A stretch of 64,000 nt of DNA, taken from positions 6,876,561-6,940,560 of the forward strand of contig AP018180.1 in assembly GCA_002368155.1 (NCBI GenBank). Reading direction: 5' to 3'. The notes under the pieces were generated by a model. The model saw only the letters and a program-made list of their open reading frames with translations. It was not told where the DNA came from and made no database searches. Positions 13,306 through 42,938 of this stretch are shown here, in pieces (position 1 is the first letter of the stretch; every line of letters starts with the position of its first letter). The position numbers were made by a program, and so were the translations under genes. This stretch comes from Nostoc carneum NIES-2107. Lineage in GTDB: Bacteria > Cyanobacteriota > Cyanobacteriia > Cyanobacteriales > Nostocaceae.

Positions 13306-13763
13306 TGGTTCTCCAACTCCTCCCCGAACATTTACAAATTATCCGCACCCATGCTGAAAGCACTTACCCAGATGAATGCTGCGGTATAATTCTGGGTCAT
13401 ATCACCCTTGAGGGGAAAACTGTAGTCGAAATTATGCCTACAGAAAATGCTTGGAATACAGAAGCAAGTAATTTTTCTGGCGATCGCACTACCGAAACTG
13501 AAAGGCGACGATATGCGATCGCACCTCAAGTTATGTTACAAGCACAAAGGAAAGCACGCGATCGCTCTCTCAACATTATCGGTATTTACCATTCCCACCC
13601 CGATGCAGCGGCAATTCCTTCAGAGTGCGATCGCCTCTATGCTTGGCCTGAATACTCGTATATAATAGTTTCCGTTCAAAAAGGTAAAGCTGAAACACTC
13701 CAAAGCTGGAGTCTAGATGAAAGCCATCAATTCCAACCAGAAACGATTAACAACATAATTTAA
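13305..13763 (+). CDS. JAMM (M67) metallopeptidase
   Basis: A 152-residue single-domain JAMM/MPN+ zinc peptidase. The full motif is visible: Glu in ECCGIILG, then HSHPD followed by seven residues to SECD (E-x(n)-H-x-H-x10-D pattern). Bacterial members such as Mec+ and QbsD trim C-terminal residues from ubiquitin-like sulfur carriers to expose the diglycine. The next gene on the same strand, 66 bp away, encodes a MoeB-type activating enzyme with a rhodanese domain, which fits this role well. Zinc-dependent and cytoplasmic. Confidence 0.88.
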   Translation: MVLQLLPEHLQIIRTHAESTYPDECCGIILGHITLEGKTVVEIMPTENAWNTEASNFSGDRTTETERRRYAIAPQVMLQAQRKARDRSLNIIGIYHSHPDAAAIPSECDRLYAWPEYSYIIVSVQKGKAETLQSWSLDESHQFQPETINNII

Positions 13764-13829
13764 ACAACCGATCAATACGGATATCATTTTTCGCTACGAT
13801 AAATAATCCGCCCTCCACTTGAAATTGCT

Positions 13830-15002
13830 ATGCTCAATCCCAATCTGGATGAAATCCAGTTGACTAAAGACGACTACGAACGCTACTCCCGCCACCTGAT
13901 TTTGCCGGAGGTGGGACTAGAGGGACAAAAACGCCTGAAAGCCGCCAGTGTACTGTGTATCGGTACGGGTGGACTGGGTGCGCCACTGCTGTTATATTTG
14001 GCAGCTGCGGGTGTGGGACGCATCGGTATTGTTGATTTCGATGTTGTCGATACTTCTAACCTGCAACGCCAAGTCATTCACGGGACATCCTGGGTAGGTA
14101 AACCCAAAATTCAATCCGCTAAGGATAGAATTCTGGAGATTAACCCCTTCTGTCAGGTTGATTTGCATGAAGTGCGCCTCAGTTCCGAAAATGCGCTGAG
14201 TATTTTGGAAGCCTATGATATTGTCGTCGATGGTACTGATAATTTCCCGACAAGGTATTTAGTCAACGATGCTTGTGTGTTGCTCAACAAGCCTAACGTT
14301 TACGGCTCGATTTTCCGCTTTGAAGGACAAGCCACAGTATTTAACTACGAAGGCGGGCCGAACTATCGTGACTTGTATCCCGAACCACCACCACCAGGAA
14401 TGGTTCCCTCTTGTGCAGAAGGTGGGGTGTTAGGAATATTGCCGGGAATTATCGGTGTGATCCAAGCCACGGAAACTGTGAAAATTATTCTGGGACAAGG
14501 TAACACTTTAAGCGGACGGCTGCTGCTGTACAACGCCTTGGAAATGAAATTCCGCGAATTGAAGCTGCGTCCTAACCCCATTCGCCCAGTTATTGAAAAA
14601 CTGATAGACTACGAAGAATTCTGCGGTATTCCCCAAGCTAAAGCTGAGGAAGCGAAACAGCAGCAAGAAATTCAAGAAATGACTGTGACGGAATTGAAAC
14701 AGTTATTAGATAGCGGTGCAAAAGACTTTGTACTGTTAGATGTGCGTAACCCCCATGAATACGAAATTGCCAAAATACCTGGTTCCGTCTTAGTACCATT
14801 ACCAGATATTGAAAATGGCGATGGCGTAAAACAAGTCAAAGAAATACTCAACGGTCACCGCTTAATTGCTCATTGTAAAATGGGCGGGCGATCGGCAAAA
14901 GCCCTGAGCATTCTTAAAGAATCTGGGATTGTTGGGACAAACGTCAAAGGTGGAATCACCGCTTGGAGTCGAGAAGTAGATTCTTCCGTTCCCGAGTATT
15001 AA
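13830..15002 (+). CDS. moeB: MoeB-type adenylyltransferase with rhodanese domain
   Basis: A 390-residue E1-like enzyme. The N-terminal ThiF/MoeB domain (about residues 10-260) binds ATP (GTGGLGAP; R-x-x-x-Q in NLQRQVIHG) and adenylates the C-terminus of small sulfur carriers (MoaD or ThiS type). A C-terminal rhodanese domain (about 285-388) has the persulfide loop CKMGGRSA. This architecture matches human MOCS3 and cyanobacterial MoeB, which transfer sulfur to molybdopterin synthase or other carriers. It is preceded by the JAMM peptidase gene, suggesting one sulfur-carrier pathway. The carrier itself is not in the window. Confidence 0.9.
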   Translation: MLNPNLDEIQLTKDDYERYSRHLILPEVGLEGQKRLKAASVLCIGTGGLGAPLLLYLAAAGVGRIGIVDFDVVDTSNLQRQVIHGTSWVGKPKIQSAKDRILEINPFCQVDLHEVRLSSENALSILEAYDIVVDGTDNFPTRYLVNDACVLLNKPNVYGSIFRFEGQATVFNYEGGPNYRDLYPEPPPPGMVPSCAEGGVLGILPGIIGVIQATETVKIILGQGNTLSGRLLLYNALEMKFRELKLRPNPIRPVIEKLIDYEEFCGIPQAKAEEAKQQQEIQEMTVTELKQLLDSGAKDFVLLDVRNPHEYEIAKIPGSVLVPLPDIENGDGVKQVKEILNGHRLIAHCKMGGRSAKALSILKESGIVGTNVKGGITAWSREVDSSVPEY

Positions 15003-21622: not shown

Positions 21623-22588
21623 TCACCAATTGATTTTATGAGAAAAAATTGCTTTGGGTAGCATTCCATGAATGCCTTTTTGAGGGCTGTTGACAACTTG
21701 GGTAATGCGAAAATTCACTGCTAAACTGCACAATACATACGCCTCTTCGGGCGATAAATTTGTAAAGCGCTCCAAGAAATCAATCATATTTTTCAAGGCT
21801 AATTCTAAGGCGGCATCTAAGGTTTCACCAAAACCCATTGTGATGATATCAGTAAGAGTTTCTGCGATTGGTGTTGTGAAATGCAAATCTTTACGTAAAG
21901 TGAGCTTAATTTTACCGTTCATCGAAGTTTCAATAGCGGTAACATTAACTTCACCATCTCCCTGAGCCGCATGACCATCACCAATAGAAAATAAAGCACC
22001 TGGAACAAAAATTGGTAAAAATATCCGAGAACCTGCTTGTAGTTCTCGGTTATCAATATTACCGCCGTAATAGCCTGGTGGAATAGAAATTCGTGATTTT
22101 TCGGGAGTTGCAACACCAAGGATACCAAAAAATGGTTTGAGGGGAATTTTAATGCCGCTATTTGTGGGAAATTCCGCAATCTTGTTTTCTAAATCGAGGG
22201 GAATAAATCTCAAAGCAGGTTGAGGAAAGATTTCTGGTAAAGCGCCCCAACCAGGACGAATGGCGTTGAAGCCTACAGGTAAACTGGGTGCGATCGCAGT
22301 TAATTCTACTTCCAAAACATCCCCTGGTTCGGCATCGTGCACATAAATAGGGCCAGTGAGTAAATGCGGCCCGCCAGCAATTTTACGTTCCGCCGCTAAA
22401 TTATGGCAGATATCGAGAAATTCTGGTGTGAGAAACTCCGGTGGCGCTTTGTCGTACACATAATAACCACTGTAAGTTTCTACCTCAATCGTGTCACCTG
22501 AATCAACAGTGAGTGCTGGTGCTAGTAAATGAGAAAAACCACTGAGATGTACTGTATCTTTGGTTGCTTTTAAAATGTGATGTGTCAT
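21623..22588 (-). CDS. Acetamidase/formamidase family enzyme
   Basis: A 321-residue hydrolase of the FmdA_AmdA family, which releases ammonia from short amides such as formamide or acetamide. It begins MTHHILKATKDTVHLSGFS, characteristic of the family. GPIYVHDAEPGDVLEVEL, HAAQGDGEV and the C-terminal LSPEEAYVLCSLAVNFRITQ are conserved blocks; the histidine and acidic residues of HxxQGDGE contribute to the metal site. A frame 14 codons longer exists, but the MTHH start matches homologues. Cytoplasmic. It may provide nitrogen from amides; the half-size TauE gene lies 128 bp downstream on the same strand. Confidence 0.88.
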   Translation of the reverse strand: MTHHILKATKDTVHLSGFSHLLAPALTVDSGDTIEVETYSGYYVYDKAPPEFLTPEFLDICHNLAAERKIAGGPHLLTGPIYVHDAEPGDVLEVELTAIAPSLPVGFNAIRPGWGALPEIFPQPALRFIPLDLENKIAEFPTNSGIKIPLKPFFGILGVATPEKSRISIPPGYYGGNIDNRELQAGSRIFLPIFVPGALFSIGDGHAAQGDGEVNVTAIETSMNGKIKLTLRKDLHFTTPIAETLTDIITMGFGETLDAALELALKNMIDFLERFTNLSPEEAYVLCSLAVNFRITQVVNSPQKGIHGMLPKAIFSHKINW

Positions 22589-22969
22589 CGGAGCATCATT
22601 GATATTGAAAAAATCTTGGCAACACATCAATTCTCTGTAGAGACATAAAGCTTTACGCCTCTACACAGATTTTGCCTGAGTCATAGCCAAAATTGCTTAT
22701 TTTTAAGAATATAGGTAAAACTTGAAACCTAGACTGGGTTTCACCCTGCTAGGCTAGAACCCCTAATAGGCGATCGCATCATAGGGATTTGGCAATTCAC
22801 AATCATAATGATTTCATCCTTTTTCTTTGTTATTTTCCTGTGTATTACTGATTCTCTATCTTCATAAATAAATTTCTAAATAAAATAGGATTCCTATATA
22901 TCAAAAATTACATATTTTCCGTGTATACACCGCAGTCACTTATAACTTGTTTTTAATAATATAAACATA
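22589..22969. other. Gene-free stretch upstream of acetamidase
   Basis: No gene is seen. A palindromic repeat built on TGTAGAG/CTCTACA lies at about 22634-22667. A perfect 10-bp palindrome GTGTATACAC is at 22921-22930. AT-rich sequence follows. Confidence 0.5.
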
Positions 22970-23518: not shown

Positions 23519-23628
23519 GCAATTGATTGTCACCGTTATTAGAGATATCGTCTGGTACACCCGGATTTTTCACAAATCTTTGCTGTAATATCCATCAATC
23601 CTTTATTTATGGGTTGAAATTAAAAGGC

Positions 23629-25090
23629 TATTAACAATACTGTAGCCAAATTACGAGGGTTCAACGGCTGTAGAAGCATTGTGAATACGACCAAGAGAGG
23701 TAAGCTTGGCAAAAATCTGGGATAATAAAATAGGCTCTGGTGGTTCTGGAAGCATTTTTAACATTTCCCGAACATATCGAAAACCACGACAATAAGCCAG
23801 AAGATCAACAATGCCAGAGCCAGGATTATCTTGACGGAACTGAGCTAGAAGATAATGAGATAAATTGACCATAAAAAATGAAAGGTTGACAGCATTAGTC
23901 ACAGCAGTTTGACCCCTGTTCATGAAATCTTCCAATCCCCAAAATTGTTTGGCATCACGAAAATTAAATTCGATTTGGAAGCGCAGTTTATAGTAGTCGA
24001 TTATTTTCTCGTATGATAAACTTAGGTCACTAGAAAACAAAATTATGTGACTGCGATCATCTGTTTTCAGATTAGTTCTTACCAAAATCACTACATTCAG
24101 AGGCTGGGCAAATTCTTTGTGAAGGAGAGTGCATTGATAAGTATCTGTTTGGATATCTTCTTCAATACTACTTTGATGCAAATATTCCTGGGGAATATTA
24201 CGCCAGTCCAGCTTATCACCGTATTTACGACGAGAACGATGATTGGGGTCAGAATGTTGGTAAGGTATATATAACGCAGAATCGTGGCGCAACTTGGAAA
24301 TTATGTGTAACTTTACCTGCCTAGCCATCTGCAAAGCATTATTGTTCCCAAAGTGACCATCTACGACTAAGTAAGTGAGAGGAAGAAAGTTAGCTATTAA
24401 CTTAAATAGCTCATTAATCATCTTCTGAATTCTTAGTAATTCAGCTGTAAAAATCACCTCCTGTTTATTTTTGTTCTTACTTCCTTTTGGTCGTCCGCGC
24501 CCACGTTTTTCTTGTGGTTTTATTTCTGGGCTTGGTGAGACAATACTTTTTTCTACATCGCTCTTGATTACCTGTTCTATCTGAATCGGAAATGAGTGTC
24601 TTTTTTGAACACTGACTAATGATAATGTAAAAAAAGAAAGACCCGATATTGGTTTACTTATTAGACTGGAAAAGAACCTATCTAATCCATAAGTTTTTTT
24701 CCCGGCTTTGCTTATTACTACTTCGTCTCCTGCCAACAAATAAACATCATTTGGGCAAAACAAATGCCGTCGAAAAAATACCCACAACACCGTTGCCCAC
24801 GGTATGACTGTACGAAAGAATCTGATTACCGACCGATAACTACCACCACTAAGCGTCCAACGCGAAATTCCCAACATCGTTACTCGCCCACTCATGGCTA
24901 ACATCGCCATAATGATCTGGCTCAATTGCCGCATCGTCGTCACTTTTATTTCTGGTAGCAGGCATTGCAACAGTGCTAGTATGTCAAACATGGGCTGTGT
25001 GTGGCTTTCGAGTTGTTGTTTTGGAAGACTATAACTCTACTACATCAGCCCTCTTTTTATACTCTTTTTTTGGCTACAGTATTGTATTAA
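23629..25090. mobile_element. IS4-family insertion sequence with TSD
   Basis: The element proper is 23635-25084 (1450 bp). Perfect 16-bp terminal inverted repeats CAATACTGTAGCCAAA (23635-23650) and TTTGGCTACAGTATTG (25069-25084) flank a single transposase gene. Both sides carry the direct repeat TATTAA (23629-23634 and 25085-25090), the target duplication. The ends and duplication are undamaged, so the insertion is probably recent. Confidence 0.92.
23651..24991 (-). CDS. IS4-family transposase
   Basis: A 446-residue DDE transposase. The first Asp is in LLAGDEVVISKAGKKTYGLD and the second in YLVVDGHFGNN. The Glu is in the exact IS4 signature Y-x2-R-x3-E-x6-K (YKLRFQIEFNFRDAK). A basic AT-hook-like insertion (RGRGRPKGSKNKNK) lies near residue 168. 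Its stop codon lies just inside the left terminal repeat and its start 78 bp inside the right one. The frame is complete. The neighbouring three-gene defence-type operon begins 160 bp beyond the right end. Confidence 0.9.
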   Translation of the reverse strand: MFDILALLQCLLPEIKVTTMRQLSQIIMAMLAMSGRVTMLGISRWTLSGGSYRSVIRFFRTVIPWATVLWVFFRRHLFCPNDVYLLAGDEVVISKAGKKTYGLDRFFSSLISKPISGLSFFTLSLVSVQKRHSFPIQIEQVIKSDVEKSIVSPSPEIKPQEKRGRGRPKGSKNKNKQEVIFTAELLRIQKMINELFKLIANFLPLTYLVVDGHFGNNNALQMARQVKLHIISKLRHDSALYIPYQHSDPNHRSRRKYGDKLDWRNIPQEYLHQSSIEEDIQTDTYQCTLLHKEFAQPLNVVILVRTNLKTDDRSHIILFSSDLSLSYEKIIDYYKLRFQIEFNFRDAKQFWGLEDFMNRGQTAVTNAVNLSFFMVNLSHYLLAQFRQDNPGSGIVDLLAYCRGFRYVREMLKMLPEPPEPILLSQIFAKLTSLGRIHNASTAVEPS

Positions 25091-25188
25091 AGGAAATAAT
25101 AACGCCAGGAAACGTAGGTAAAATTAAACTATACGCTACGTGGTCAGGCGCGCTCGAAATAAAAACTAAAAATTTATACCCATATGGG

Positions 25189-25236
25189 TTGACAATGTAA
25201 TTTACATCATTTAGTGTAAACACTTATTGATGTAAA
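25189..25236 (+). promoter_or_regulatory. Putative promoter and operator of pPIWI_RE operon
   Basis: TTGACA at 25189-25194 and TAGTGT at 25212-25217, 17 bases apart, form a plausible sigma-70 promoter. Three overlapping dyads cover it: ATGTAA-T-TTACAT (25195-25207), AGTGT-AA-ACACT (25213-25224) and the 9-bp pair TTTACATCA (25201-25209) / TGATGTAAA (25228-25236). The shared TGTAA half-site suggests cooperative repressor binding. No regulator gene is adjacent. Confidence 0.5.
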
Positions 25237-25244
25237 GTAAATAT

Positions 25245-26765
25245 ATGAAATTTGAAAGCGTGCGTCAATGGCAGGGAACTGCAGAGGTACTGACAAAAGA
25301 ACTTAAACACCAAATTGAACAACTGAGACTGTCAGTAGAGTCACCTGCCTTGCGAACCGTGCGGTCGTGGAGAGCAAAGCAACTTCTATCACAACCCAAA
25401 GGACAAGAATTTGGATTTCGGCAAATTTTGGAAGGATTGGCAACAAGTTTACTGTTAAAGAAAGGTTGGACACTAGCAGCGATCGCGCAAGTATTACCTT
25501 CTTTCTCTGAAGATACTTTGGAGTTGCAAATTCTGGCGGAAGCTCAAGGTCAAGACCCCACATGGCTACCCACCATCACAACAACTTCTTTACCGTTACC
25601 AACTGGACACAGACCAGCGACGGATCTGGCTGAAGATGCCGTAGTTTTGTTAGCACAAGGAATTATCCGCCAATATGACCGAGTGCTACCGAGACAACAA
25701 ATTGTCCGTCAAGAGGATAGTACATTGCCGCCAGAACTCTATCAAGCAATGTGCAAATTAGGTCGTCTCTATATTGAAGAAGGACAATGCGATCGCGCGG
25801 CTTGTGTACACACTGTTTTAGATAACGCACGCTACCCGCTTGGTTCTGAGCGTTGGGGGTTAGGAATATTTAGCCAATCAGACTTTCGCTTTGCTAACGC
25901 AACTATCATTGATCCAGATTTGCGAGTTCCTACATCAGATTGTGCCGAGATTGCCAACCTCAGTGGCGGTTTTGGGGAAAATAATGTCATTGAACATCGC
26001 CTTTATACTGACTTATGCGACGCAACTCAAAGGTTGGGTGGTCGCCGTCAACATAAGGCTTACACTGCACTACGAGAGTTGCTTGGTAGGTATTCTCTGA
26101 TTGGACAACGCCAACTATTTGATTACTTGGTTGATAATGACTTAACTCCTTTACAGGGAATGATTCTTGATAATTTTTTCGATTTAGTACCGGATATTTG
26201 GCTAATTGATGGTTTAGCAAACCGTTGCGCCCACTGTGGCACACTTATGCGACCTCACCCTAACAATAGACTTTTTCCACAAGGGCGTTGTCCCATTCGC
26301 CAGTGTATTGGTCATGAATTGCCAAAAGTATCTGAGACACTAGATCCAGACAAAGATATTTTACGAATTGCCAAGTCGCAAATTCTCACCTACTGGACAG
26401 GCCCAGCCATTGATGAATTAAAGATATTTGATACAGCTAGACAAAACGGATTAGATGCTGAACTTTATCCAGAGTCGGATTTATGCGATATAGCGATTAA
26501 TGAAAAAGCAATTGGCATTGATGCTAAATCCTACACAAGTCCGGTGACTTTGGCTTTGCGTCTCAATCGTAGTATTGGCGGTTTGATTTATTATCGTCGT
26601 CGGATTTTGGCTGTGAGCGATCGCTTAATTGAAGATAACCCAAGCTACATTTCCACCCTCAAATCAACACTTGATAAAAAAGGTGATGCGGCGAGTTTAG
26701 AGATTATGTCAGTTTCCTCAGTAATTGAGTTTTTAAAGAAGATGCCCTATGCGAACCAAACCTGA
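25245..26765 (+). CDS. pPIWI_RE-associated PD-(D/E)xK nuclease
   Basis: A 506-residue protein and the first gene of the three-gene operon. The C-terminal nuclease domain has the pattern D415 (LCDIAI), D426 and K428 (GIDAKSY), a restriction-endonuclease-fold active site (D-x10-DxK). A zinc-ribbon-like set C328, C331, C349 and C354 lies just before it. The N-terminal 320 residues are helical, without a motif I recognise, and probably form the accessory domain described for this family. It overlaps the helicase start by 17 bases, so the two are translationally coupled. Predicted role: the DNA-cutting arm of the system. The family call rests on context and the active site together. Confidence 0.82.
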   Translation: MKFESVRQWQGTAEVLTKELKHQIEQLRLSVESPALRTVRSWRAKQLLSQPKGQEFGFRQILEGLATSLLLKKGWTLAAIAQVLPSFSEDTLELQILAEAQGQDPTWLPTITTTSLPLPTGHRPATDLAEDAVVLLAQGIIRQYDRVLPRQQIVRQEDSTLPPELYQAMCKLGRLYIEEGQCDRAACVHTVLDNARYPLGSERWGLGIFSQSDFRFANATIIDPDLRVPTSDCAEIANLSGGFGENNVIEHRLYTDLCDATQRLGGRRQHKAYTALRELLGRYSLIGQRQLFDYLVDNDLTPLQGMILDNFFDLVPDIWLIDGLANRCAHCGTLMRPHPNNRLFPQGRCPIRQCIGHELPKVSETLDPDKDILRIAKSQILTYWTGPAIDELKIFDTARQNGLDAELYPESDLCDIAINEKAIGIDAKSYTSPVTLALRLNRSIGGLIYYRRRILAVSDRLIEDNPSYISTLKSTLDKKGDAASLEIMSVSSVIEFLKKMPYANQT

Positions 26766-29700
26766 TTTTTGGAAAGGTGCAGAGCGAATTTGTTGGCTTT
26801 GCGTCTTCATGGAAGAATTTATCGGCACTAATTCACTGGAGTATGCGCCAGTAGTCATGTCAGGTATGGCGAGCATTTTAAATGCACCTACCTTTGCACA
26901 AGCTCGTCAGGCTATTTTCAATATGCGTCAGATGTCACTGGCTTATGTAACACATCAGTCAGTGAAGCACGCGATCGCTCTCTATAACAATTATCATTAC
27001 TCCAACAATACTCAAGGAACCTATGAAATTGATATTGAAACACTTCAGTTTCAAAGGACTGACGCTTTAGAAGATTCGTCAATTACAAAGGCGCGGCAAA
27101 TTCTGAGTAACCCTTTGCCATACGAAACTTATGGTTTTACAGTTGCTGATCCTCGTCAGCCAATGGCTGTGGCGTTAGGTGAAGACTCAACCTCCGTGAA
27201 GTTAGACATTCCGCGTATCTCTGCCCCGATTGCTACACGTCGTACCCATTCCCTCAACCGCCAACCAAGAGGAAAGATTTGCATTCCCCTAAAAGAACTG
27301 CACGATTTGGCTCGTGAAATGGACGAACGTGAACAGCAAGATCCTGAACGACGATTAGGTAATTGGGCTGATCGCTTTGAACGCTTTGACCTGATGGTAT
27401 CGGAGGCTGGAAAAGGACTGCGGAAAGAAGATGATGTGTTGGAATTGGAGGATATCAAACACTTAATTGGTTTACCTGGGTCAGGTAAAACAACATTGTT
27501 GGTGTTGATAGCTGTCTGGTTGGGGCTACATGACTATAAAGCCATGTTTGTGTTTCCCTCTATTGAAGTTGCTAGACAGTACATGGCTGATTTGGCATTT
27601 CATCAAGTTAAAGTGGGAATGCTTGTCGGTCAAGGTGATGAAACTCGTCGTCGCCACGCAGATAATATTGCCGAAGCGATCGCCGCTATAGGAAATAATG
27701 GTGGTTTTGCTTACAGCTTAGAACAGGCGGAAGTTTTTGGACTCAACTGCGTTCTACCAGCCTTTTCTACTGCTGATATGTCTTTTTGGGGCTTTGGTTA
27801 TGCACCTTGTAATGAGATATTGCAAGGAGGGGGGAAACAGGGAAAGATGAAAAAATGCCTGTGTCCCCTTTGGACAATGTGCGGTCGCAACAAAGCACAG
27901 CGAGATTTATTAGATGCCAATATTTGGGTTGGTCATGTGCGATCGCTTGATACGCAAATATCACCCCATGCAGCTTACGAACAATTACGATATTTTGAAT
28001 TAATTGCCCGTACCTTTGACCTAGTGGTTTTCGACGAAGGCGACATGGTGCAGAAAGTATTAGATGATTATGGGGCTGCAACTTTAAGTATTTCCGGCTC
28101 AGAACACTCAATTCATAAAGTAATTCTTGAACAAATTCATAATCGCTTTGCTCGTGGTGAAAACTATCGATTATTTGATCGGGATATAGAACTTTACAGC
28201 CGTGACTTAGCGGAATTTGGCAATCATAATACCTCTTTGATTACCACTATCCATAATATGTCAGGGTCGCGGGTAAAAGAACGCTACGAAAATCAATTGC
28301 TCACTGTATTACGGATTGTTAGCGAACTCTTGAATAGTGTTAAAAAATCCACTAAACAAGATGAAATTGATGAACAAGAAGCCAAAACAGAAGTTACCAG
28401 AAGTCGAGCCTTAGCTGAATTTTGGGAAAAAGCAGCATATAACGCCTTTTATGACCGTACAGGAGTTAATAATCCTCAAGATTTTAAAGCAGATTTTTGG
28501 CCTCATTATATAGGCATAAATAAAGATACCTTAGAACAGCAATGGAAAACTCTCATTGAGCATTTTCGCCGCTACTTAGCTGAAAATCTGATTAAACAAC
28601 GTGACGCGATTGTCCAAGAAATTATCGATTTATTTTTCAAACTCTATTTTCCCAAGCATCAATTAAATATCGAAGCAGAGGATTTAATTAAACTACTAAT
28701 AACTGTTACATTCGTAATTCTGGGTTATCAGCGAATTGTACCAGGGACAAGAACAATGGTTGCAGAAGGTTTTATTCGTGAACCCATTGTAGAATCCACT
28801 GCATCACCAGAACTCAGAAAATTTATTCCCGAAAGCATTTTAGGTTCATTTTCTGGTGTGCGATACAGTTTTTTCAAAGCACTAACAACGCGCACTGCTG
28901 CTAGAAATATGGAGTTATCTTACATTACATTTGTAGGTGCGCCTCGGATGTTAATGCACCGCTTTCATCGGTTGTTAGAGGCAGATAATGGACAAGCCAG
29001 TCCAACTATTTTAATTACCTCAGCTACATCATTTTTACAAGCCAGTCCTGCTTATCATATTAACGCCGGGCCACATTATTTACTCAAAGCACGTCAGCCA
29101 AAAAATCAGACATCAGCAAAAAGCACTTATTATTTCAAATGGTTTTCAGATAGTCAACGGGGCGACCAACCTCTACTATACAGTGGCGCAGGCGATCGCA
29201 ACCTGCAAACACGTAATCTTCAACTGATAGTAGATGCTCTTATTAAAGGAGGAACGACTAAATCTGAAATTTACAAAGCCATGAATAAATTTGATGTCAA
29301 GTCTGGTATTCGCCGTAAAGCAGCTTTAGTTGTTAATGGTTATGACCAAGCACGCGATATCAAAAAATATATCAATACCTATTATCCTGATGTTGGTAGG
29401 CATACAAAAGCAGTTGTGAAGTCTCTAAGAGAAGGGGAACAACCAAAGGATTTTGTCACTTCTGCTCAATGTGAAGCATTAGGAGATGATGAAAATTGCC
29501 ACATTTTAATTTTTCCCATGCTGGCAATTGGTAGAGGTGTCAACATCGTTTTTACCAAAGGGGAAAGAAAACTAGATGCAGCAATTGGATCAATTTATTT
29601 CCTCACTCGTCCTCACCCTACTAAAGATGATATGCAGCTTTTGTATAGTTTGACAGGGCGAGCAACACAAGAATTTGATAGTCGAGTTTTTAGTGAAACA

Positions 29701-30174
29701 GAAGATTTGAATGCCATAGCAACAGCTTGGCAACAATCAAGAAAAGACCTCTGGTTAACTGCCAATAGATTGTTACGTGAACCCTTAATGGCAAGCCGTT
29801 TGGGGCCTGAACTATTCAAATCATTTACGGCTAATCAAATGGTAGCTATTCTGCAAACAATTGGTCGAGGAATGCGAAATGGATGCCCAGTATCAGTTTA
29901 CTTTGTTGATGCAGCTTGGGCTAAAAAATCAACAGAAGATAAACCCGATTCTGGACGAGATAGTATGCTGGTTCAGATGCGAATTATTTTAGAAGAATGT
30001 GTTAACCATGAAGACCCTGTAATTCGAGAAATTTATCAAGAACTGTATAGCGCATTTCTAGAACCTTTACAGCGCATTCAAGGAGTAATTTACCCAGATG
30101 AATTACATTCCTTAGAAGAATCGGCGGATGAAGAAGAGGGTTTTGACGATTTTTCAACAATATTGGAGATGTAA
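26749..30174 (+). CDS. DinG/XPD-like Fe-S helicase of pPIWI_RE system
   Basis: A 1141-residue superfamily 2 helicase. The P-loop is at 241-249 (GLPGSGKTT) and the Walker B acidic box at 429-432 (DEGD). Motif VI is near the C-terminus (QTIGRGMRNG). Four cysteines at 354, 370, 372 and 378 lie between Walker A and B, followed by a W-V-G-H block. This is the position of the [4Fe-4S] domain in XPD and DinG helicases. About 230 residues precede the helicase core and form an extra domain typical of the pPIWI_RE island. Expected to unwind DNA or RNA-DNA hybrids 5' to 3'. The stop is 2 bases before the next ATG. Confidence 0.85.
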   Translation: MRTKPDFWKGAERICWLCVFMEEFIGTNSLEYAPVVMSGMASILNAPTFAQARQAIFNMRQMSLAYVTHQSVKHAIALYNNYHYSNNTQGTYEIDIETLQFQRTDALEDSSITKARQILSNPLPYETYGFTVADPRQPMAVALGEDSTSVKLDIPRISAPIATRRTHSLNRQPRGKICIPLKELHDLAREMDEREQQDPERRLGNWADRFERFDLMVSEAGKGLRKEDDVLELEDIKHLIGLPGSGKTTLLVLIAVWLGLHDYKAMFVFPSIEVARQYMADLAFHQVKVGMLVGQGDETRRRHADNIAEAIAAIGNNGGFAYSLEQAEVFGLNCVLPAFSTADMSFWGFGYAPCNEILQGGGKQGKMKKCLCPLWTMCGRNKAQRDLLDANIWVGHVRSLDTQISPHAAYEQLRYFELIARTFDLVVFDEGDMVQKVLDDYGAATLSISGSEHSIHKVILEQIHNRFARGENYRLFDRDIELYSRDLAEFGNHNTSLITTIHNMSGSRVKERYENQLLTVLRIVSELLNSVKKSTKQDEIDEQEAKTEVTRSRALAEFWEKAAYNAFYDRTGVNNPQDFKADFWPHYIGINKDTLEQQWKTLIEHFRRYLAENLIKQRDAIVQEIIDLFFKLYFPKHQLNIEAEDLIKLLITVTFVILGYQRIVPGTRTMVAEGFIREPIVESTASPELRKFIPESILGSFSGVRYSFFKALTTRTAARNMELSYITFVGAPRMLMHRFHRLLEADNGQASPTILITSATSFLQASPAYHINAGPHYLLKARQPKNQTSAKSTYYFKWFSDSQRGDQPLLYSGAGDRNLQTRNLQLIVDALIKGGTTKSEIYKAMNKFDVKSGIRRKAALVVNGYDQARDIKKYINTYYPDVGRHTKAVVKSLREGEQPKDFVTSAQCEALGDDENCHILIFPMLAIGRGVNIVFTKGERKLDAAIGSIYFLTRPHPTKDDMQLLYSLTGRATQEFDSRVFSETEDLNAIATAWQQSRKDLWLTANRLLREPLMASRLGPELFKSFTANQMVAILQTIGRGMRNGCPVSVYFVDAAWAKKSTEDKPDSGRDSMLVQMRIILEECVNHEDPVIREIYQELYSAFLEPLQRIQGVIYPDELHSLEESADEEEGFDDFSTILEM

Positions 30175-30176
30175 AA

Positions 30177-33100
30177 ATGATTAATAACTTTGATAATGAA
30201 ATTGAATTGGAAGAAGATTTATTTGCAGAAGAGGAAGAGGAAGAAACTGAAGGTGATTTAGTCTCAGATACATTGTATATCCAGCCAGGGGCAAGCAAAT
30301 CAATTGCAAAATTTCCTTTAGCTTTTAGCGTACCAGATAAACTACCCCCAATTATAGTAGAGGGTTGCACTCTTACTTGGACAAAACCAGCGTTGCAATG
30401 TTTTGGCGAGATTCAACAAGGAGCTAATGTCAAAAATCTTCCTTATGGCTCATTGCGAAATTTTCTACAGATAGTCTTAAAAGATGCAGCAAGAATTGAA
30501 CCAGAGATAGGTCTTAGCAAAAGTGCATTTTATCATGCTAACAAGGGAGATGAGCCAGAACCTTTTGTTTACATTACTGGTGGTAATGAAGAAGAAATCA
30601 ATAGAATGCTTCGCCCAATTATTGATGATTGGTTGACAAACTATCTCAAACCATTTGCTGAAAAAGAGGATATATCAATAGGGATTATTGAACGCTTGGA
30701 AGATTTGCAAGAAACAGGAGAGTTGATAAAAGTTTCTGCATTCAAATCTCAAGTATTACCTTGGGGTTGGAATTCAAAGACGGATACAACTCAACCTAAA
30801 GATAAATATGCCTATCGAATGCTGGCAGATTATGTAGCTCGTCAACTTGCTGGACAAGTTATTTTTCCAGATTTAAGGCCGATGAAACGGGTTATTTTCA
30901 GCAATGGTACATTTTCTTCTGGTATTGCAGAACTGATTACAGATCCGATCACTTTAGATAACAAAAAGGGAAAATTCAGTTTTGTAGTGAAATTGGAAGT
31001 TATTACTTATCCATCTTTACATCAACCTTTATTAAAAGTTGAGGTTTCTAAACGTCGGTGGTTAACTCAGTTAAAAGCTCCTGAATATGACCGTAGAAAT
31101 ATTAGCGGTTTCATATTTTCTCAAGAGCATACTGATCGCGCCTTTAGCTATCAAGTCAAAGCTGAGGTAGACAAAAACAGCAAAAAGGGTAAAAACAAAA
31201 AGCAAGAGAAGGTAAAATGGGTTTGGAGAACAGATAAGGATTTTGAAATCCTGCGGAGAAAATTAAATCTGGGGTCATCTAGTGATGGACAAGAAATCGC
31301 TTTAGGTTCAGCCTCTACTGATAGCTGTCAGGTACTTCTAACTTACCGTAATGGACTTCAAGATAATTCAGAAGATGACGAAGAAACTTCAGAAAAATAC
31401 GGTATCGAAACAGGTGTACCAGAGATTGATAAATTAGATGCGTTTGAAGCGATCGCTGAAATTCTTCAACCACTAGGAATGGAAATATTTGATAAATATT
31501 CTTTGGTTAAACAAAGCCATGACTTGAAGGAAACAAAGAAAGCGACACGTATGATTAATCTTCCTACACTGCTTGGTGGTGTTTTGGAAGCTCTTGAAAC
31601 AAATACCAACTTAGAGTTTACTCCAAAATATCTCGATCAACTCAACGAGGAACAAATTGATGACTTGCTAAGTAAATATTTTGGCATTCGTTTAGAAGGT
31701 ATTCATTGGGGAATAAAAGCTCTTCAATTCAAAGGACGCACAAAGAATCAAACGGCTGAACTTCAAGACTTAATTCAAGCAAACCAGACGGCGATGCAGA
31801 GATTGTATCCCAATGAACGACCTTTATTATTTATCTTTTATGAACCTGAATTACAAACAGAAGTGAAACTGTTGCAGAAGGTTACTCAACTTCTGTGGGG
31901 AGACACACTTAAAGTAGAAATTAGTCGCTTGCCAGAAAATACCCACGGAACAAGAGAAAGTTTACTAGGAAAAGAGTTGAAGGCTAAAGAGCGATCGCGG
32001 GAGAGAATTAAAGCATGGGAGTCCACAGCACAACAGATTAAAAAGCTCAATCAGCCAACTTTCTGCTTAATAATGGCGCGGCAGTTTTATCCAAATTCTA
32101 ATGGACAAAACAATGTCAAACCTGACGATAAAATTAATAAACCATCAACCCGCAAAGCATTAGCAATGGCTGGTGCTGGTGTGCAGTTCCTATTACCCAT
32201 TGGAAAAATACGCAATACAAACCGTCTTAAACTTGCAGATTTTTTCCATAGGATGCAGTCAGCATTAAAAGATTTAATCTTTGCCCATTCTGGCCGCATT
32301 GATGGTGTAGAAGAAAAAATTGATAAGTACCTGCAAAATATTTCACCGGAAGCAAGACCAAAAGAAATTATTGTAATTACAATCGTCCGTAAACAAAAAG
32401 GTCGCGTTCGTGGCAAAATAGAAAGTACATTTTTACCAATAGCTATCCATATCAATGTGGATACAGGTAAATGTGAATTTTGCTGTGCTTATGATAAAGG
32501 AAATTTAGTAATCAGTTCATGGATTAGTTTTTCTGATGCGCGAGCTTTTGTTGCTGAACTTACTCCTATTAAATTGGCTGATAAAGAAGAGGTACGCCAG
32601 ACCAGATTCATGGACTTTGTGGAACAGGTTGTTTCTGATTCTGTGGAAAGAGGTAAACAACCATTGGTTATGATTGATTCTTCCAACTGTGTTCAACTAT
32701 GGCCTTGGTTAGCTGATATTAGAATAAATGCTAATCAAATTAACCTTGGCCAGCAGTATGAAAACATGGAGGTTAACTGGCAAGGAGCACGTATAATTCG
32801 CATACGCCAAGAACTAGCACCTGGCATTATTGAAAAAAAATCCAGACATTTAATAGAAACTTCTATAGAAGATACCAGAACTAAAGAAGAACTAAAAAAA
32901 CTGCCACCTGACATAGAAATTCCTTCAGCATCTAGTGCAACTGGCTTATTTCGACTCAGCGCGACTAACAAAACTGGATGCGTAGCTTATCTATCTGTGG
33001 CGCGTGAACTACCACAAAGAAAACCTCGTGGGCAAAGTTGCTATCGATCAACCTACAGTCTAGATAAAAAAACTAATTTACTCACTAAACAAGCTCCGTT

Positions 33101-33332
33101 TGCAGGTCGCTGGCCTACTCCCAACCCCCTTGAAATTGTCGTTACCTTGCGCCAACCAGAAGATAATCCTGATGACTTAGCAGCCCTTGTGGAGTCACTG
33201 CGCTATGGCTTTGGTCACTACAGTGATTGGACGGCCTTACCTGCTCCCTTATTTTTTGAGCGTGTTGTACGCGATTACATCAGCGATTTTACAATTGAAG
33301 ACGAAGAAACTGAAGTGGAATCAGACTCCTAG
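30177..33332 (+). CDS. pPIWI_RE family Argonaute-like protein
   Basis: A 1051-residue protein whose end matches the RNase H/PIWI domain of the pPIWI_RE family, named for a conserved Arg and Glu. A basic RIIRIR block at 872-877 and Glu986 in the PNPLEIVV block, followed by LAALVESLRYGFGHYSDWTALPAPLF, correspond to these. The middle (about 530-640; LLFIFYEPEL) is consistent with a MID-like domain. The N-terminus is acidic (EEEEEET) and then continues into the large N-terminal X-type region. Family members are predicted to bind a guide nucleic acid without the usual catalytic tetrad, leaving cutting to the linked nuclease. Third gene of the operon. Confidence 0.87.
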   Translation: MINNFDNEIELEEDLFAEEEEEETEGDLVSDTLYIQPGASKSIAKFPLAFSVPDKLPPIIVEGCTLTWTKPALQCFGEIQQGANVKNLPYGSLRNFLQIVLKDAARIEPEIGLSKSAFYHANKGDEPEPFVYITGGNEEEINRMLRPIIDDWLTNYLKPFAEKEDISIGIIERLEDLQETGELIKVSAFKSQVLPWGWNSKTDTTQPKDKYAYRMLADYVARQLAGQVIFPDLRPMKRVIFSNGTFSSGIAELITDPITLDNKKGKFSFVVKLEVITYPSLHQPLLKVEVSKRRWLTQLKAPEYDRRNISGFIFSQEHTDRAFSYQVKAEVDKNSKKGKNKKQEKVKWVWRTDKDFEILRRKLNLGSSSDGQEIALGSASTDSCQVLLTYRNGLQDNSEDDEETSEKYGIETGVPEIDKLDAFEAIAEILQPLGMEIFDKYSLVKQSHDLKETKKATRMINLPTLLGGVLEALETNTNLEFTPKYLDQLNEEQIDDLLSKYFGIRLEGIHWGIKALQFKGRTKNQTAELQDLIQANQTAMQRLYPNERPLLFIFYEPELQTEVKLLQKVTQLLWGDTLKVEISRLPENTHGTRESLLGKELKAKERSRERIKAWESTAQQIKKLNQPTFCLIMARQFYPNSNGQNNVKPDDKINKPSTRKALAMAGAGVQFLLPIGKIRNTNRLKLADFFHRMQSALKDLIFAHSGRIDGVEEKIDKYLQNISPEARPKEIIVITIVRKQKGRVRGKIESTFLPIAIHINVDTGKCEFCCAYDKGNLVISSWISFSDARAFVAELTPIKLADKEEVRQTRFMDFVEQVVSDSVERGKQPLVMIDSSNCVQLWPWLADIRINANQINLGQQYENMEVNWQGARIIRIRQELAPGIIEKKSRHLIETSIEDTRTKEELKKLPPDIEIPSASSATGLFRLSATNKTGCVAYLSVARELPQRKPRGQSCYRSTYSLDKKTNLLTKQAPFAGRWPTPNPLEIVVTLRQPEDNPDDLAALVESLRYGFGHYSDWTALPAPLFFERVVRDYISDFTIEDEETEVESDS

Positions 33333-33496
33333 AGGTAATTCTCAGTTTTGCTGGATTGTATGATTTCCTCAGAAGCTAGCTTAGTAGAGACTTTAATTTC
33401 CTTGGTATAAGGCAGGACAACAGCCTGCCAGGGTGTAAGCACTCGGTAGAATGGTTTTGTCTGTAATCAAAAATTCATGCCTCCGTAGCCAAGCTT
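33333..33496. terminator. Weak hairpin after pPIWI_RE operon
   Basis: A 6-bp stem GGCAGG (33411-33416) / CCTGCC (33424-33429) lies 80 bp after the operon's last stop. There is no T-run, so termination here is uncertain. Confidence 0.35.
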
Positions 33497-38376: not shown

Positions 38377-39630
38377 TCAGTTTCCTGGTTTTTTGGGAGC
38401 CTCATAGTAATTTATTTGACCCGAACCACTAAGAGCAGTAATATTGCTGTCTGAGATATTGAAGGTGTTCGAGTACTGTTGCTGTGGAGAACTGACATCC
38501 TTAGATTCAGCAGGAGATTGAGGATTTACTGTTGGCGCTTCAGCTACAGGTTTGGTTTGTTCTTGTTGGGGAATGATACGTGCTGCAATTGGCGCTATAT
38601 CTTCGTCACCAAGACCTAAAATTTGCTGTAACTTTTTTAATTCACTGCGAGTACTTTCACTTAAAATCGGCTCTTGTTGAACTACCTCAACTAGCACCTG
38701 CTCATACTGCTGTAATTTCTTTTTGTACTCCCGATGAGGCTGCAAAACCTCAGTTTCAATAGCGCTAAGTTCCTCTGGATGCAATCCCAAACTTTCACCA
38801 AATGCATCTAATACTTTTCGCCCAACAAAAGAAATCTCCCCTTGGCTGGCGTAAGCTTCAACTTCTTTGCGGTATCTCAACTTGGCATCGCCTATAGGAG
38901 CTTGAGCTAGTATAATTTTGTACCCTTCTTTCACTGCATAGATTTCTGGCTTCATAGCTGGTGCTGCTGCTTGCACTTTGTTTTTGGCATATTCATGCAA
39001 CTCATCTACAGAAATTACGCCATTGCCATCTCGATCCGCCATTCCGGTTTCAATACCTTCAACTAGATAGCGAGTATAAATTGAGAGGTCTGAGCCTTGC
39101 TGCTCGAATGAATATTGGGTTGAGGTAGAAGAGGTGAGAATAACTCGCCCTTCTCCACCTAATTGAGTTTTGATATCAACAGCACCGTCATCTTTAGCTA
39201 ATAAACCCTCAACAAATGCGCCACTAAAGCAACAATCAAGAATCACCACTTGGCGTTTTGAGCGGCTGTTGCTCATAATGTCATGGACAAAACTAGTAGC
39301 AACTGCTGTGGATTTGCGGAGTGCGCCGCGATCATCTTTGCGTGTCAAGCGTGTCGCAAAGTAAAGCCTACCCGCATCATCTTTAATGCCATGTCCCGAG
39401 AAAAACAATAACACTAAGTCATCCTTAGCACGACCAGAGAACAAAGTTTCAATCGCCTCTTGCATTTCCAGGGGATCGGGATTATGCAGGATTTGGATAT
39501 TTGAAAAATTGCCAATTTCCGGGTGTTGTAAAATACGCTGTATCGCCAGCACATCATTTTCAGCCGCAGGTAGAGGAGTTAAACCAGGCTGATATTGGCT
39601 TACTTCAATGAGCAGTGCTAATTTTGCCAT
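38377..39630 (-). CDS. Caspase-like peptidase with C-terminal GSGQI motif
   Basis: A 417-residue protein. The C14 domain (about residues 1-245) has His80 (FFSGHG) and Cys134 (DCCFSGAF), and a calcium-loop-like DRDGNGVISVDEL. The helical segment that follows (LRYRKEVEAYA, then EYKKKLQQYEQ) resembles the caspase at 17607. A Pro/Ser-rich linker leads to the C-terminal 30 residues, which hold the motif N-x-F-x-I-x2-S-x-I-T-x-L-x-GSGQI-x-Y-x-EA. The same motif occurs in the pentapeptide protein at 43021. It is probably co-transcribed with the upstream trypsin-like gene (53 bp gap). Cytoplasmic. Likely an effector protease of a cell-death-type system. Confidence 0.85.
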   Translation of the reverse strand: MAKLALLIEVSQYQPGLTPLPAAENDVLAIQRILQHPEIGNFSNIQILHNPDPLEMQEAIETLFSGRAKDDLVLLFFSGHGIKDDAGRLYFATRLTRKDDRGALRKSTAVATSFVHDIMSNSRSKRQVVILDCCFSGAFVEGLLAKDDGAVDIKTQLGGEGRVILTSSTSTQYSFEQQGSDLSIYTRYLVEGIETGMADRDGNGVISVDELHEYAKNKVQAAAPAMKPEIYAVKEGYKIILAQAPIGDAKLRYRKEVEAYASQGEISFVGRKVLDAFGESLGLHPEELSAIETEVLQPHREYKKKLQQYEQVLVEVVQQEPILSESTRSELKKLQQILGLGDEDIAPIAARIIPQQEQTKPVAEAPTVNPQSPAESKDVSSPQQQYSNTFNISDSNITALSGSGQINYYEAPKKPGN

Positions 39631-39683
39631 TTTATTAACAATAAATTTATCAATAATTTAGGGATGAGCGACGCTGATCAAAT

Positions 39684-42600
39684 TTAAGTTTTCTGCTGTT
39701 TGGAGATTTTAATCGGTGGCGAAGGGAAGCAGGTTGCTTGTCCAACAATCTTACCAGGCTTGCCATTGACAAGATTACGCACATCCTTGTCGTCATCTAG
39801 TCGCCAGTAACCAACCAAGTCTTTCTCTTTTCCTGTCAACCTTCGAGACATATTGGCTTTAATCTCATCCTGAGTACGCGCTACTTTCCAGAGTCGGACA
39901 TCAGCGATCGCCACACTATAATAAATCTCTTTCTCTTCTTTGCAACCAATCTTGAGAGGTTCTGTAAGTTGCACTAAAGGCCCTGTAAATAAGCCAATAC
40001 TCTTAGCTTTCCCAGCAAAAATAATAGTTTTAGATTGCCCTTCTATTACACAGTCCTGGATTCTACCGTCAATATAAATCGAAATTTCCCCAGATTCTTG
40101 ATTCCAAGTAAAAGCAATATGATGCCACACCTGATCCTGTGGAGCATTTTCTTTTGTATAAACGGTAGTTGTTTCTGATAAATTTTGCATAACTACACGA
40201 ATTTTTCCGTTGTCCCAAGATAGAGAATAGCCATTTTTTTCTCTATCGACTCTACTCACAATGAAACAACTACCAAATTTGTGCTTCAACCAAGCTTCAA
40301 CAGTAATTACTGGATTGACATTGAGAGTTTCATCATTGCCACAATCTACATAATTGTTTTTATCATCAAATTTTAAAGACGATGGTAATAGGGGAGCAGG
40401 AAAGTTAGATTGGCGTAACCATTTTGGCTCTCCATAAATTTCTAGAATCTGATGATTATTCGTAGATATGAGACTATTTATTTTATTTCCCCTGCCTTCT
40501 TCAAATTGCCACTGACTAATCAGAACATTCTTCTCATCCTTTAGGCAAACTTTCGCCATCGCACCTCTAAAGAAACTCCACAAATTACCTTTACAGGGAA
40601 AATCTGGAATAGAAAGGTTTTTATTTGAGTAGGCACCAATAATTATCGGACTTCCTTTAGTAATATCAATATTTAAGGCTGCATTTTTGGTCGTCTGTTG
40701 AATTATTCGCAAATCTTGATTATTTGGTTTTTGGCACAAATTTAATTTACTGGAATGTCCGTTAATTTGAATATCTATTTTTAAATTTTCGTTTTCTTTT
40801 CTATAAGTTAGATTAATTTGATTAAACTCACCAAAATTAACTACTTCTTCAGTCTCATAGTCATAAGACTGAATTACAGTAATCAATTTCTGCGTCAGCG
40901 GCCCACAAACACCATCTGGTTTCAAGCCAAAATCTTTTTGAAATTCCTTGACAGCATTGCTGGTTTCTTTATCATAGATACCATTCAGTTGACCATTATA
41001 ATAATCAAGATTCATTAACAAGTTCTGAAGCCCTTTAACTATTTCTCCTTGACTAGGATTTTCAGAAACAGGAATTTTTAAATTGTTTTTTTCATAAGGT
41101 AGCTGATCAAGAGCATCATAGTTAAGTTCATATAAACCCAAAAAGGTAATTTGGGAATTTAAATAATTTAATATTTGCGGATCTATATCACTAATATCTT
41201 GTGTGGGATCAAAGTGAATGTTTTCTTCTTGCAAATTTACAACGAATTGTTGTAATGCATTTTTAGTAGCATCATCATATATACCATTCACGCAAATATT
41301 ATAGCTAAGAATTTTCAGAATACTTTGCAGATTAAATATAAATTCTTGCGCTCTACTGTCTTCTTGAGGTATTTCTAGGGGGAGAGTTGGGAGTGTATAC
41401 ATTTTTCGGGAAAAGATAATTTTTCCCTGTTTATTTATATATACTCGTAAAGCATCATAACCTAGTGTTGCTATACAGTTATTAGAAAAAGCCTGGTAGA
41501 ACTTACTAAATACTGTACTTTCAACTTCATTAGAGTAAGGACAAATCAAAGCCTCAATACTAAATCCATTACTAAATTGAGGTTGCTCAAGGAATTGACA
41601 ATCTTCCGCATTCTTTAAAAGCACATAATCATTAAATCCATCTAATTCGATAGCAAATGCTAGAGGCGGATTATTTAGCTGTTCCGAGGTAATAACAAAA
41701 TCTTCAATAAAATTTCTGAGTTTCCGATAATGAAAACTCTTTTTCTTTAAATCTTCAACGATACGACAAATTCTGATACCTTGTTGAGCAACTATTTCCA
41801 CTTGATGATTTTGCTCGTTTTCATGGTAATCTTTAGGTACAGCTGCATGATGTAATGCTACTGCTTCCCATTTACTATTAACAACTAAACCGCCAGAAGA
41901 ACCATAATCAGAATCTACTTTATATCTGAGAAAATTTTTATATAAGCCATTTTCAATAACTTTATTATTACTAATATCAATCTTTTTTTGCTTACCTTTA
42001 GGATGGTGAACAATAAATATATTATCGCCACTATTTGTTTCTTTTTCTAGCTTAGATAAAAGCTCTAAATCTTGAGAATTGAGATTACTTTTTATCTCTG
42101 GGGTTAACCCAGGGAAAATATTGATATCGTTTTCAATCAGCTGAATCCAATCAAAATAATACCCAGCTTGTCTAGTGAACATACTAGATTTTAGTTGTAT
42201 AAGCGTGTAATCTAAACTTGGCTCATTTACAAATAAGATTTCTGGATCTAGCTCATAATCTAGAGTTTGCTGCGTATAACCCAGACTATCTTCAGTGTAG
42301 TTAAATTGGGCAACACATTGACTAGCTATTTTTTTATCGCTGATCACGTGATGATTAGTAATTAAATGAGTAACACCAACTAAAAATCCAGTTCCTATGG
42401 GAATAGGATTAAGAACAGACAGTTGGCTTTCAGAAATATTTTTTAGTTTTTCTAAGTAAAACAAACCCTTTAAAGGCTCATCACTTGGTGCTTCACTTTC
42501 TAGCAATAATTTATTAAATATCTCATCTGGTATAGAAAATATCTCTTTTATTTTTGCTGGTTGATTGAAATTATTATCATCCCTTCGTTTATCAATCTCC

Positions 42601-42938
42601 TGCTTAATATATTCTATAAAATCTCGAAAATCTTTAAGAGGAAAGAATCTCGCAATTCGACATACAGCTAAACTGCGTTTCATCCCCACTTGTAGAGAGG
42701 AGACAGGGAGAATATCCCGCTCATCAGAACCTACAGAAACTGATGATTTTTGATTATTGAGCAAGCGCAATCTTTCTTTAACAATTGCTAATATTTTGTC
42801 TTTATCTTCTAAAGCAAGGTTGATTAAAAAGTCTGGTTTTTCAGGTATACCAGAGAGGAATTCCCAACCTCCTAGTCCACCTTGCTTAATCCAATGTGCT
42901 TGAGAAAGCGAGGTAAATACATCAAAATTAATTTGCAT
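39684..42938 (-). CDS. Trypsin-like protease with LamG and PG-binding-type domains
   Basis: A 1084-residue multidomain protein. A trypsin-fold domain (about residues 170-395) has His197 (TNHHV), Asp243 (LDYTL) and Ser348 (GSSGG), so the triad is complete. The first 150 residues are a separate helical domain of unknown type. After the protease comes a LamG-like fold whose strands (about 428-515 and 698-850) are interrupted by two peptidoglycan-binding-1-like repeats (about 530-595 and 630-690; NGIYDxxTxNA). A complete second LamG (about 870-1075; VITVEAWLKHKF, VWHHIAFTW) ends the protein. No signal peptide, so probably cytoplasmic. The LamG parts may bind a ligand that switches the protease. 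Confidence 0.82.
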   Translation of the reverse strand: MQINFDVFTSLSQAHWIKQGGLGGWEFLSGIPEKPDFLINLALEDKDKILAIVKERLRLLNNQKSSVSVGSDERDILPVSSLQVGMKRSLAVCRIARFFPLKDFRDFIEYIKQEIDKRRDDNNFNQPAKIKEIFSIPDEIFNKLLLESEAPSDEPLKGLFYLEKLKNISESQLSVLNPIPIGTGFLVGVTHLITNHHVISDKKIASQCVAQFNYTEDSLGYTQQTLDYELDPEILFVNEPSLDYTLIQLKSSMFTRQAGYYFDWIQLIENDINIFPGLTPEIKSNLNSQDLELLSKLEKETNSGDNIFIVHHPKGKQKKIDISNNKVIENGLYKNFLRYKVDSDYGSSGGLVVNSKWEAVALHHAAVPKDYHENEQNHQVEIVAQQGIRICRIVEDLKKKSFHYRKLRNFIEDFVITSEQLNNPPLAFAIELDGFNDYVLLKNAEDCQFLEQPQFSNGFSIEALICPYSNEVESTVFSKFYQAFSNNCIATLGYDALRVYINKQGKIIFSRKMYTLPTLPLEIPQEDSRAQEFIFNLQSILKILSYNICVNGIYDDATKNALQQFVVNLQEENIHFDPTQDISDIDPQILNYLNSQITFLGLYELNYDALDQLPYEKNNLKIPVSENPSQGEIVKGLQNLLMNLDYYNGQLNGIYDKETSNAVKEFQKDFGLKPDGVCGPLTQKLITVIQSYDYETEEVVNFGEFNQINLTYRKENENLKIDIQINGHSSKLNLCQKPNNQDLRIIQQTTKNAALNIDITKGSPIIIGAYSNKNLSIPDFPCKGNLWSFFRGAMAKVCLKDEKNVLISQWQFEEGRGNKINSLISTNNHQILEIYGEPKWLRQSNFPAPLLPSSLKFDDKNNYVDCGNDETLNVNPVITVEAWLKHKFGSCFIVSRVDREKNGYSLSWDNGKIRVVMQNLSETTTVYTKENAPQDQVWHHIAFTWNQESGEISIYIDGRIQDCVIEGQSKTIIFAGKAKSIGLFTGPLVQLTEPLKIGCKEEKEIYYSVAIADVRLWKVARTQDEIKANMSRRLTGKEKDLVGYWRLDDDKDVRNLVNGKPGKIVGQATCFPSPPIKISKQQKT

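Follow-up and report, generated by a model that had tools for sequence, protein, structure and literature searches.

Does the region 25245-33332 of the window, by which we mean the whole 64,000-nucleotide stretch of Nostoc carneum DNA that was analysed, encode a complete pPIWI_RE island, and how would such a system act? The pPIWI_RE family, a large Argonaute-related branch that has hardly been studied, was defined in 2013 by Burroughs, Iyer and Aravind, who put forward a model of RNA-dependent restriction (PMC3702460); PADLOC carries it as 'Ppr'. An earlier note on this DNA spoke of little experimental work on the family, which stands with the exception of one relative, PsPIWI-RE of Pseudomonas stutzeri (PMC10991935, 2022), the one study that we found among the open-licence PMC matches listed. 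Statements on published systems below follow excerpts of the cited papers.

Composition of the three-gene island

The region is a complete, intact pPIWI_RE three-gene island, and its membership of the family is certain. The features of the locus are as follows.

23542-33431, no strand: stretch absent from sibling genome G002 at the same locus (DNA boundary comparison)
23633-25084, - strand: insertion sequence, outside the system (transposase 23651-24991; PF13546)
25189-25236, + strand: predicted promoter/operator (24-locus upstream alignment, shuffle test, core uniqueness)
25245-26765, + strand: nuclease subunit gene, 506 aa, with MerR-like HTH, Y region, zinc ribbon and PD-(D/E)xK domain (Pfam, PADLOC, ortholog alignment)
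25347-25517, + strand: MerR-like HTH, nuclease residues 35-91 (hhalign)
26226-26306, + strand: zinc ribbon C328, C331, C349, C354 (invariant in 26/26)
26412-26732, + strand: REase domain, residues 390-496, with D412, D415, D426, K428 (PF18154; invariant in 26/26)
26749-30174, + strand: DinG-type SF2 helicase gene with Z domain, 1141 aa (PF18155; PprDinG 1034 bits)
27469-28044, + strand: Walker A 241-248; C334, C354, C372, C378; DE(G/A)D box 429-432 (32-row alignment)
30177-33332, + strand: pPIWI_RE protein gene, 1051 aa, with X 49-454, MID 555-711 and RNase H/PIWI 732-1036 (Pfam, AF2 model, fold matches)
32379-32381, + strand: codon of T735, opposite the first catalytic Asp of Argonautes (forced global hhalign, 12/12 templates; Thr in 26/26)

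The three open reading frames all lie on the + strand, and the tight coupling claimed for them, a 17-bp overlap and then a 2-bp gap, is exact. Pfam and PADLOC models match all three proteins. Both pPIWI_RE_REase (E 2.1e-14) in the nuclease and pPIWI_RE_Z (E 4.5e-32) in the helicase score above their curated cut-offs, as do pPIWI_RE_X (E 5.4e-39), MID (E 1e-18) and RNaseH (E 7.7e-53) in the third protein, which unites these three modules. With the X, MID, RNase H and nuclease models all above their cut-offs, the family membership proposed in the earlier note is upheld. The triad proteins had no NCBIfam match above a family cut-off, and a search of solved structures by sequence returned no pPIWI_RE relative, giving weak, unrelated matches alone at E<=1.

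A scan of GTDB genomes identified 32 ortholog loci, all cyanobacterial. Together with 35 loci, the window gives 36 rows in which the three genes were sought, L030/L059 and L039/L073 being duplicate pairs. In nine rows (L052, L062, L068, L071, L075, L077, L078, L079 and L081) one or more of the genes is broken, short or partial, and some of these rows sit at contig ends. The order REase-DinG-PIWI is the same in every ortholog locus where all three genes were found. Given the family scores and the 32 ortholog loci in other cyanobacteria, chance is ruled out as an explanation of the triad; family models, ortholog loci and fold matches together bear out an intact three-gene system in a cyanobacterium, as had been suggested. 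The ortholog alignments used below hold 26 of the 36 rows, the window included, and exclude L032, the duplicate records and the majority of genes that are broken or reach a contig edge.

A nuclease, a helicase and a PIWI protein with an altered active site

In the nuclease subunit, a Y domain and a zinc ribbon precede the REase domain, as in the published definition of the island. The residues D415, D426 and K428 singled out by the earlier note are as stated and invariant in 26/26 aligned orthologs; with D412, they are also present in 13/13 of a divergent set. The pPIWI_RE_Y model does not reach its cut-off with the nuclease of the window (E 0.051) and matches at E<=1 in 25/26 orthologs, at best with 3.7e-6. 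The AF2 model is modest (mean pLDDT 63.5), and in the structure search it resembles the Hef/XPF nuclease domain best, though weakly (E 0.16). Near the N-terminus, hhalign matches residues 35-91 to MerR regulators that the genome itself encodes (E 4.1e-5, probability 70%, against E 0.18 and 0.3% for the reversed control). Pfam MerR_1 was sub-threshold on the nuclease orthologs, in 5/26, and a PDB sequence search with the subunit gave no MerR among its matches. HTH fusions to the REase, the MerR type included, have already been reported for pPIWI_RE islands (PMC3702460).

The helicase is of the DinG type and has the cysteine cluster and Z domain expected of the island. The four cysteines that the earlier note placed between Walker A and B are in fact five between Walker A and the DEGD box: C334, C354, C372 and C378 are invariant in 32/32 rows, two of which are duplicate records, and C370 is present in 19/32. 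Apart from S/A245 and G/A431, the residues of Walker A, DExD and motif VI are the same in all 32 rows. Judged by their conserved motifs, both the nuclease and the helicase look active.

For the PIWI protein, the AF2 model is of moderate confidence (mean pLDDT 68.1). Its 35 best structure matches are all Argonaute/PIWI chains, and by the model and structure search the Argonaute-type fold spans residues 46-1040. Pfam Piwi (PF02171) was not among the matches of the protein at E<=1, nor did it match anywhere in the whole N. carneum genome at E<=0.001. The basic RIIRIR block and Glu986, noted earlier as family marks, are found as R872, R875, R877 and E986, invariant in 26/26 orthologs; R875 and R877 occur in 19/20 diverse family members and E986 in 17/20. 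The conserved Arg and Glu of the RNase H extension are thus present, R875 and R877 both being candidates for the Arg.

The active site was located by comparing a 20-protein pPIWI_RE alignment with 27 cyanobacterial Argonautes (27 of 29 pAgo frames, drawn from a PF02171 search with matches in 43 of 148 genomes). In forced global hhalign, the Asp of the Argonaute GLD/GFD motif, the first catalytic residue of these proteins, falls on T735 in 12/12 of the template sequences placed first (E 3.5e-7 to 2.6e-4, probability 19-88%). In local mode the alignments were weak, with probabilities of 1-2%, another covering the C-terminus only, and the 26-ortholog profile alone, run against the Argonautes in global mode, aligned one column. 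Position 735 is Thr in 26/26 aligned orthologs, and is Asp in 0/20 diverse pPIWI_RE proteins. D834, kept in 26/26 orthologs, falls one residue off the second Argonaute Asp in the global alignment. An earlier alignment had put the first catalytic residue near 758-762; this was dropped, because the first RNase H strand lies at 730-738 by both the AF2 model and hhalign.

K655, R659, Q670 and R/K692 are kept in 18, 19, 17 and 20, respectively, of the 20 diverse members. By the spacing of the corresponding residues in human and Thermus Argonautes, we presume these to be the guide 5'-end pocket, which the PIWI protein therefore appears to have kept.

Catalytic residues survive in a subset of pPIWI_RE only (PMC3702460), and the window protein, with T735 for the first Asp, does not have both catalytic aspartates of that active subset. 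Like the window protein, PsPIWI-RE is co-encoded with a DinG helicase and a nuclease. It carries out RNA-guided DNA cleavage in vitro, and since D525A and D610A each abolished this cleavage (PMC10991935), the loss of one Asp predicts a non-slicer; in contrast to PsPIWI-RE, which cuts and needs both residues, the window protein is a predicted non-cutter. Because the first catalytic Asp is lost, we believe that the PIWI module is probably a guide-binding sensor, and we reject an active slicer for this 26-sequence clade. With T735 in place of the slicer Asp, and with D415, D426 and K428 invariant in 26/26, we assign the cutting, as a prediction, to the PD-(D/E)xK subunit.

Operator, history and distribution of the cassette

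Upstream of the nuclease gene, TTGACA at 25189-25194 is followed 17 bases on by TAGTGT at 25212-25217, a possible -10, and putative operator half-sites lie at 25201-25206 (TTTACA), 25215-25220 (TGTAAA) and 25231-25236 (TGTAAA). With the window's own letters as reference, a 34-base box outscored every one of 200 shuffles upstream of 25 of 31 orthologs; these 31 of the 36 rows exclude the duplicates L030 and L039, and L071, L075 and L078, which have no REase match. The box did not exceed the shuffles in the other six, namely L062, L068 and L077, in which the REase frame is short and the tested stretch is not the true upstream, and L063, L065 and L073, in which the half-sites are visible by eye only. 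The 20-base operator core has exactly one exact match in the 9.36-Mb genome. At two mismatches it has three places against eight for the reversed control, and only the exact match therefore counts. For each of the seven Nostocaceae orthologs compared, DNA homology with the window runs from 25189 to 33313 or 33314, boundaries by which the conserved cassette consists of the promoter and the three genes.

The operon may be autoregulated, the MerR-like domain of the nuclease acting at the operon's own predicted operator. A bolder and, in our view, improbable extension would make the nuclease both effector and repressor: it would sit idle on its own operator until a target-bound, non-cutting PIWI protein drew it off, turning the operon on and making the attack self-amplifying. 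In that case the effector itself would serve as the infection sensor of a guided restriction system.

In a tree of 31 of the 36 rows (without the duplicates L059 and L073 and without L077-L079, whose PIWI frames are <850 aa), the window copy and that of Anabaena azotica form a pair (100/99) within a Nostocaceae clade, away from the copies found in the window's own genus. Two of the latter, in Calothrix brevissima NIES-22 and in the NIES-3275/PCC 7712/PCC 7601 lineage, are plasmid-borne and diverged. Sibling G002 has 229 bp of other sequence where the window has 9,890 bp, the adjoining blocks being 94-97% identical. At the same right-hand junction, three further genomes (G003, G004 and G006) retain a PIWI gene tail of the window type, the scar of a related triad; this tail is frameshifted in G004 and G006. 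The triad has a horizontal history, most simply explained by one older insertion and later losses. Against four chosen orthologs, dN/dS is 0.10-0.13 for the REase, 0.11-0.16 for DinG and 0.22-0.29 for the PIWI gene. The cassette belongs to a Nostocaceae lineage and is under purifying selection. The insertion sequence ends 104 bp upstream of the triad promoter, and has three further copies in the same genome that are 100% identical over the matched 1.35-1.45 kb.

More widely, the pPIWI_RE RNaseH model matched in 16 of 58 genomes searched, the window's own included, and relatives occur in 17 of 72,556 plasmid records. No match was found among 50,697 phage records, and of 161 pattern matches in viral contigs none was confirmed as a relative. 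In nine Nostoc loci the triad sits at a common position close to a coaBC-like gene, so that it can be a long-term resident.

The same genome holds a second, divergent and broken pPIWI_RE triad about 480 kb away (L004:6729-15597, about 7386729-7395597). Its helicase is intact (1214 aa), its PIWI gene is split by a transposase gene (13671-14792) and its nuclease is reduced to a 72-aa remnant frame; an intact homolog is present in genome G005 (L041). Just upstream of the divergent triads, an HTH_3 gene and an IrrE-like Peptidase_M78 gene form an opposite-strand pair (L041:3764-4690, L042:4402-5408, L045:2653-3566), and in a scan for the peptidase alone an opposite-strand IrrE-like Peptidase_M78 gene was also seen upstream of the second triad (L004:6729-7271). 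Such a pair could be a protease-controlled switch.

Several other observations were made on the surroundings and on distant relatives. An acetamidase/formamidase gene (PF03069) lies near three different pPIWI_RE triads, at 21623-22630 in the window (2.6 kb away), at G005:C49:20036-21013 (~9.7 kb) and at G024:C1:5289761-5290723 (~4.4 kb); its neighbourhood is a possible hotspot. In the window, a caspase-like protease gene stands beside one for a trypsin-like/peptidoglycan-binding/LamG protein (38377-42938), with matches to the PADLOC caspase and RT-Protease_XI models. In genome G049, pPIWI_RE genes are in short frames at two places (L037:10960-12798, L040:6282-9307). Plasmids of Microvirga, Bradyrhizobium and Azospirillum encode giant pPIWI_RE proteins of 3394, 3100 and 3256 aa, respectively (L083:8899-19083, L084:8815-18117, L085:8791-18561), whose C-terminal parts of >2,000 aa are 31-37% identical over ~1,500 residues and contain an AAA_22 ATPase; a WYL gene precedes and an AAA_33 gene follows each giant gene.

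Proposed action and alternatives

With moderate confidence, we propose that this intact cyanobacterial island works as a guided, self-regulated restriction system. The PIWI protein would hold a short guide whose 5' end is seated in the MID pocket, and would pair with foreign nucleic acid or recognise an RNA/DNA hybrid. Without the first catalytic Asp it would signal and not slice. The DinG-type helicase would open the DNA or R-loop, and the PD-(D/E)xK subunit would cut the invader or DNA at large. Meanwhile, the MerR-like domain of the nuclease would bind the operon's own operator and keep expression low. Here we infer the guide type, the target, complex formation, repression and the anti-invader role alike. 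An anti-phage or anti-plasmid role is the best inference, as it is consistent with horizontal transfer, repeated loss, plasmid carriage and the prediction made for the family.

One branch of this model, which we regard as possible and on the doubtful side, is abortive infection, in which the inactive PIWI protein would find its target, the nuclease would degrade DNA indiscriminately and the cell would die. The long-B pAgo system BPAN, on which this is patterned, has the same parts on paper, an inactive Argonaute sensor and a separate PD-(D/E)XK DNase, and the tight transcriptional control predicted above would suit a toxic effector. However, BPAN uses a different type of pAgo and no helicase is named for it in the excerpted text, so that the window triad is not a member (PMC10620215), and the helicase partner points to a processive action on the target of the kind seen in DdmDE (PMC12904381).

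We think it unlikely that the triad is instead a replication or repair aid, unconnected with invaders, that resolves stalled forks or RNA/DNA hybrids of the host. This alternative is live due to the phenotype of P. stutzeri, in which deletion of PsPIWI-RE made cells filamentous and more sensitive to ciprofloxacin, read by the authors as a role in replication or division (PMC10991935); moreover, DinG helicases act on R-loops (PMC3702460), and the nine Nostoc loci are long resident near coaBC. It fits poorly with the patchy presence of the system (16/58 genomes), its horizontal placement, its loss with scars and its carriage on plasmids, and also with an operon that has a nuclease attached and no modification gene.

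That the chromosome captured a cassette mainly serving plasmids against rival plasmids, as the plasmid-borne relatives, two siblings' plasmids among them, might suggest, is improbable, since both the window copy and the nine loci near coaBC in Nostoc look chromosomal and are maintained by selection.

Returning to the guided restriction system, DdmDE likewise acts on plasmids by combining a guide sensor of Argonaute type with helicase and nuclease activities (PMC12904381). These activities belong to one protein there and to two in the window, and the likeness that we draw is one of logic. A non-cutting PIWI protein with a helicase and a nuclease is best read as closest in logic to BPAN and DdmDE, and in substance to the model of Burroughs et al. 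Indeed, the window shares with the published island the REase-DinG-PIWI order, overlapping or close gene ends, X, MID and RNaseH modules, Z domain, zinc ribbon, REase, and conserved R and E; to the account excerpted here it adds the clade-wide loss of the first Asp (26 sequences), a conserved operator, and a history of scar, absence and plasmid carriage (PMC3702460).

The locus offers a clean, compact cassette, from promoter to stop, from a cyanobacterium, and the predictions that follow are that the PIWI protein alone does not cut, that the REase does, and that the nuclease subunit binds the 48-bp operator. If our reading is right, guide sensing without slicing, together with a recruited nuclease, would be common to pPIWI_RE, long-B pAgo and DdmDE systems, and the operator would provide a handle on when such systems switch on.
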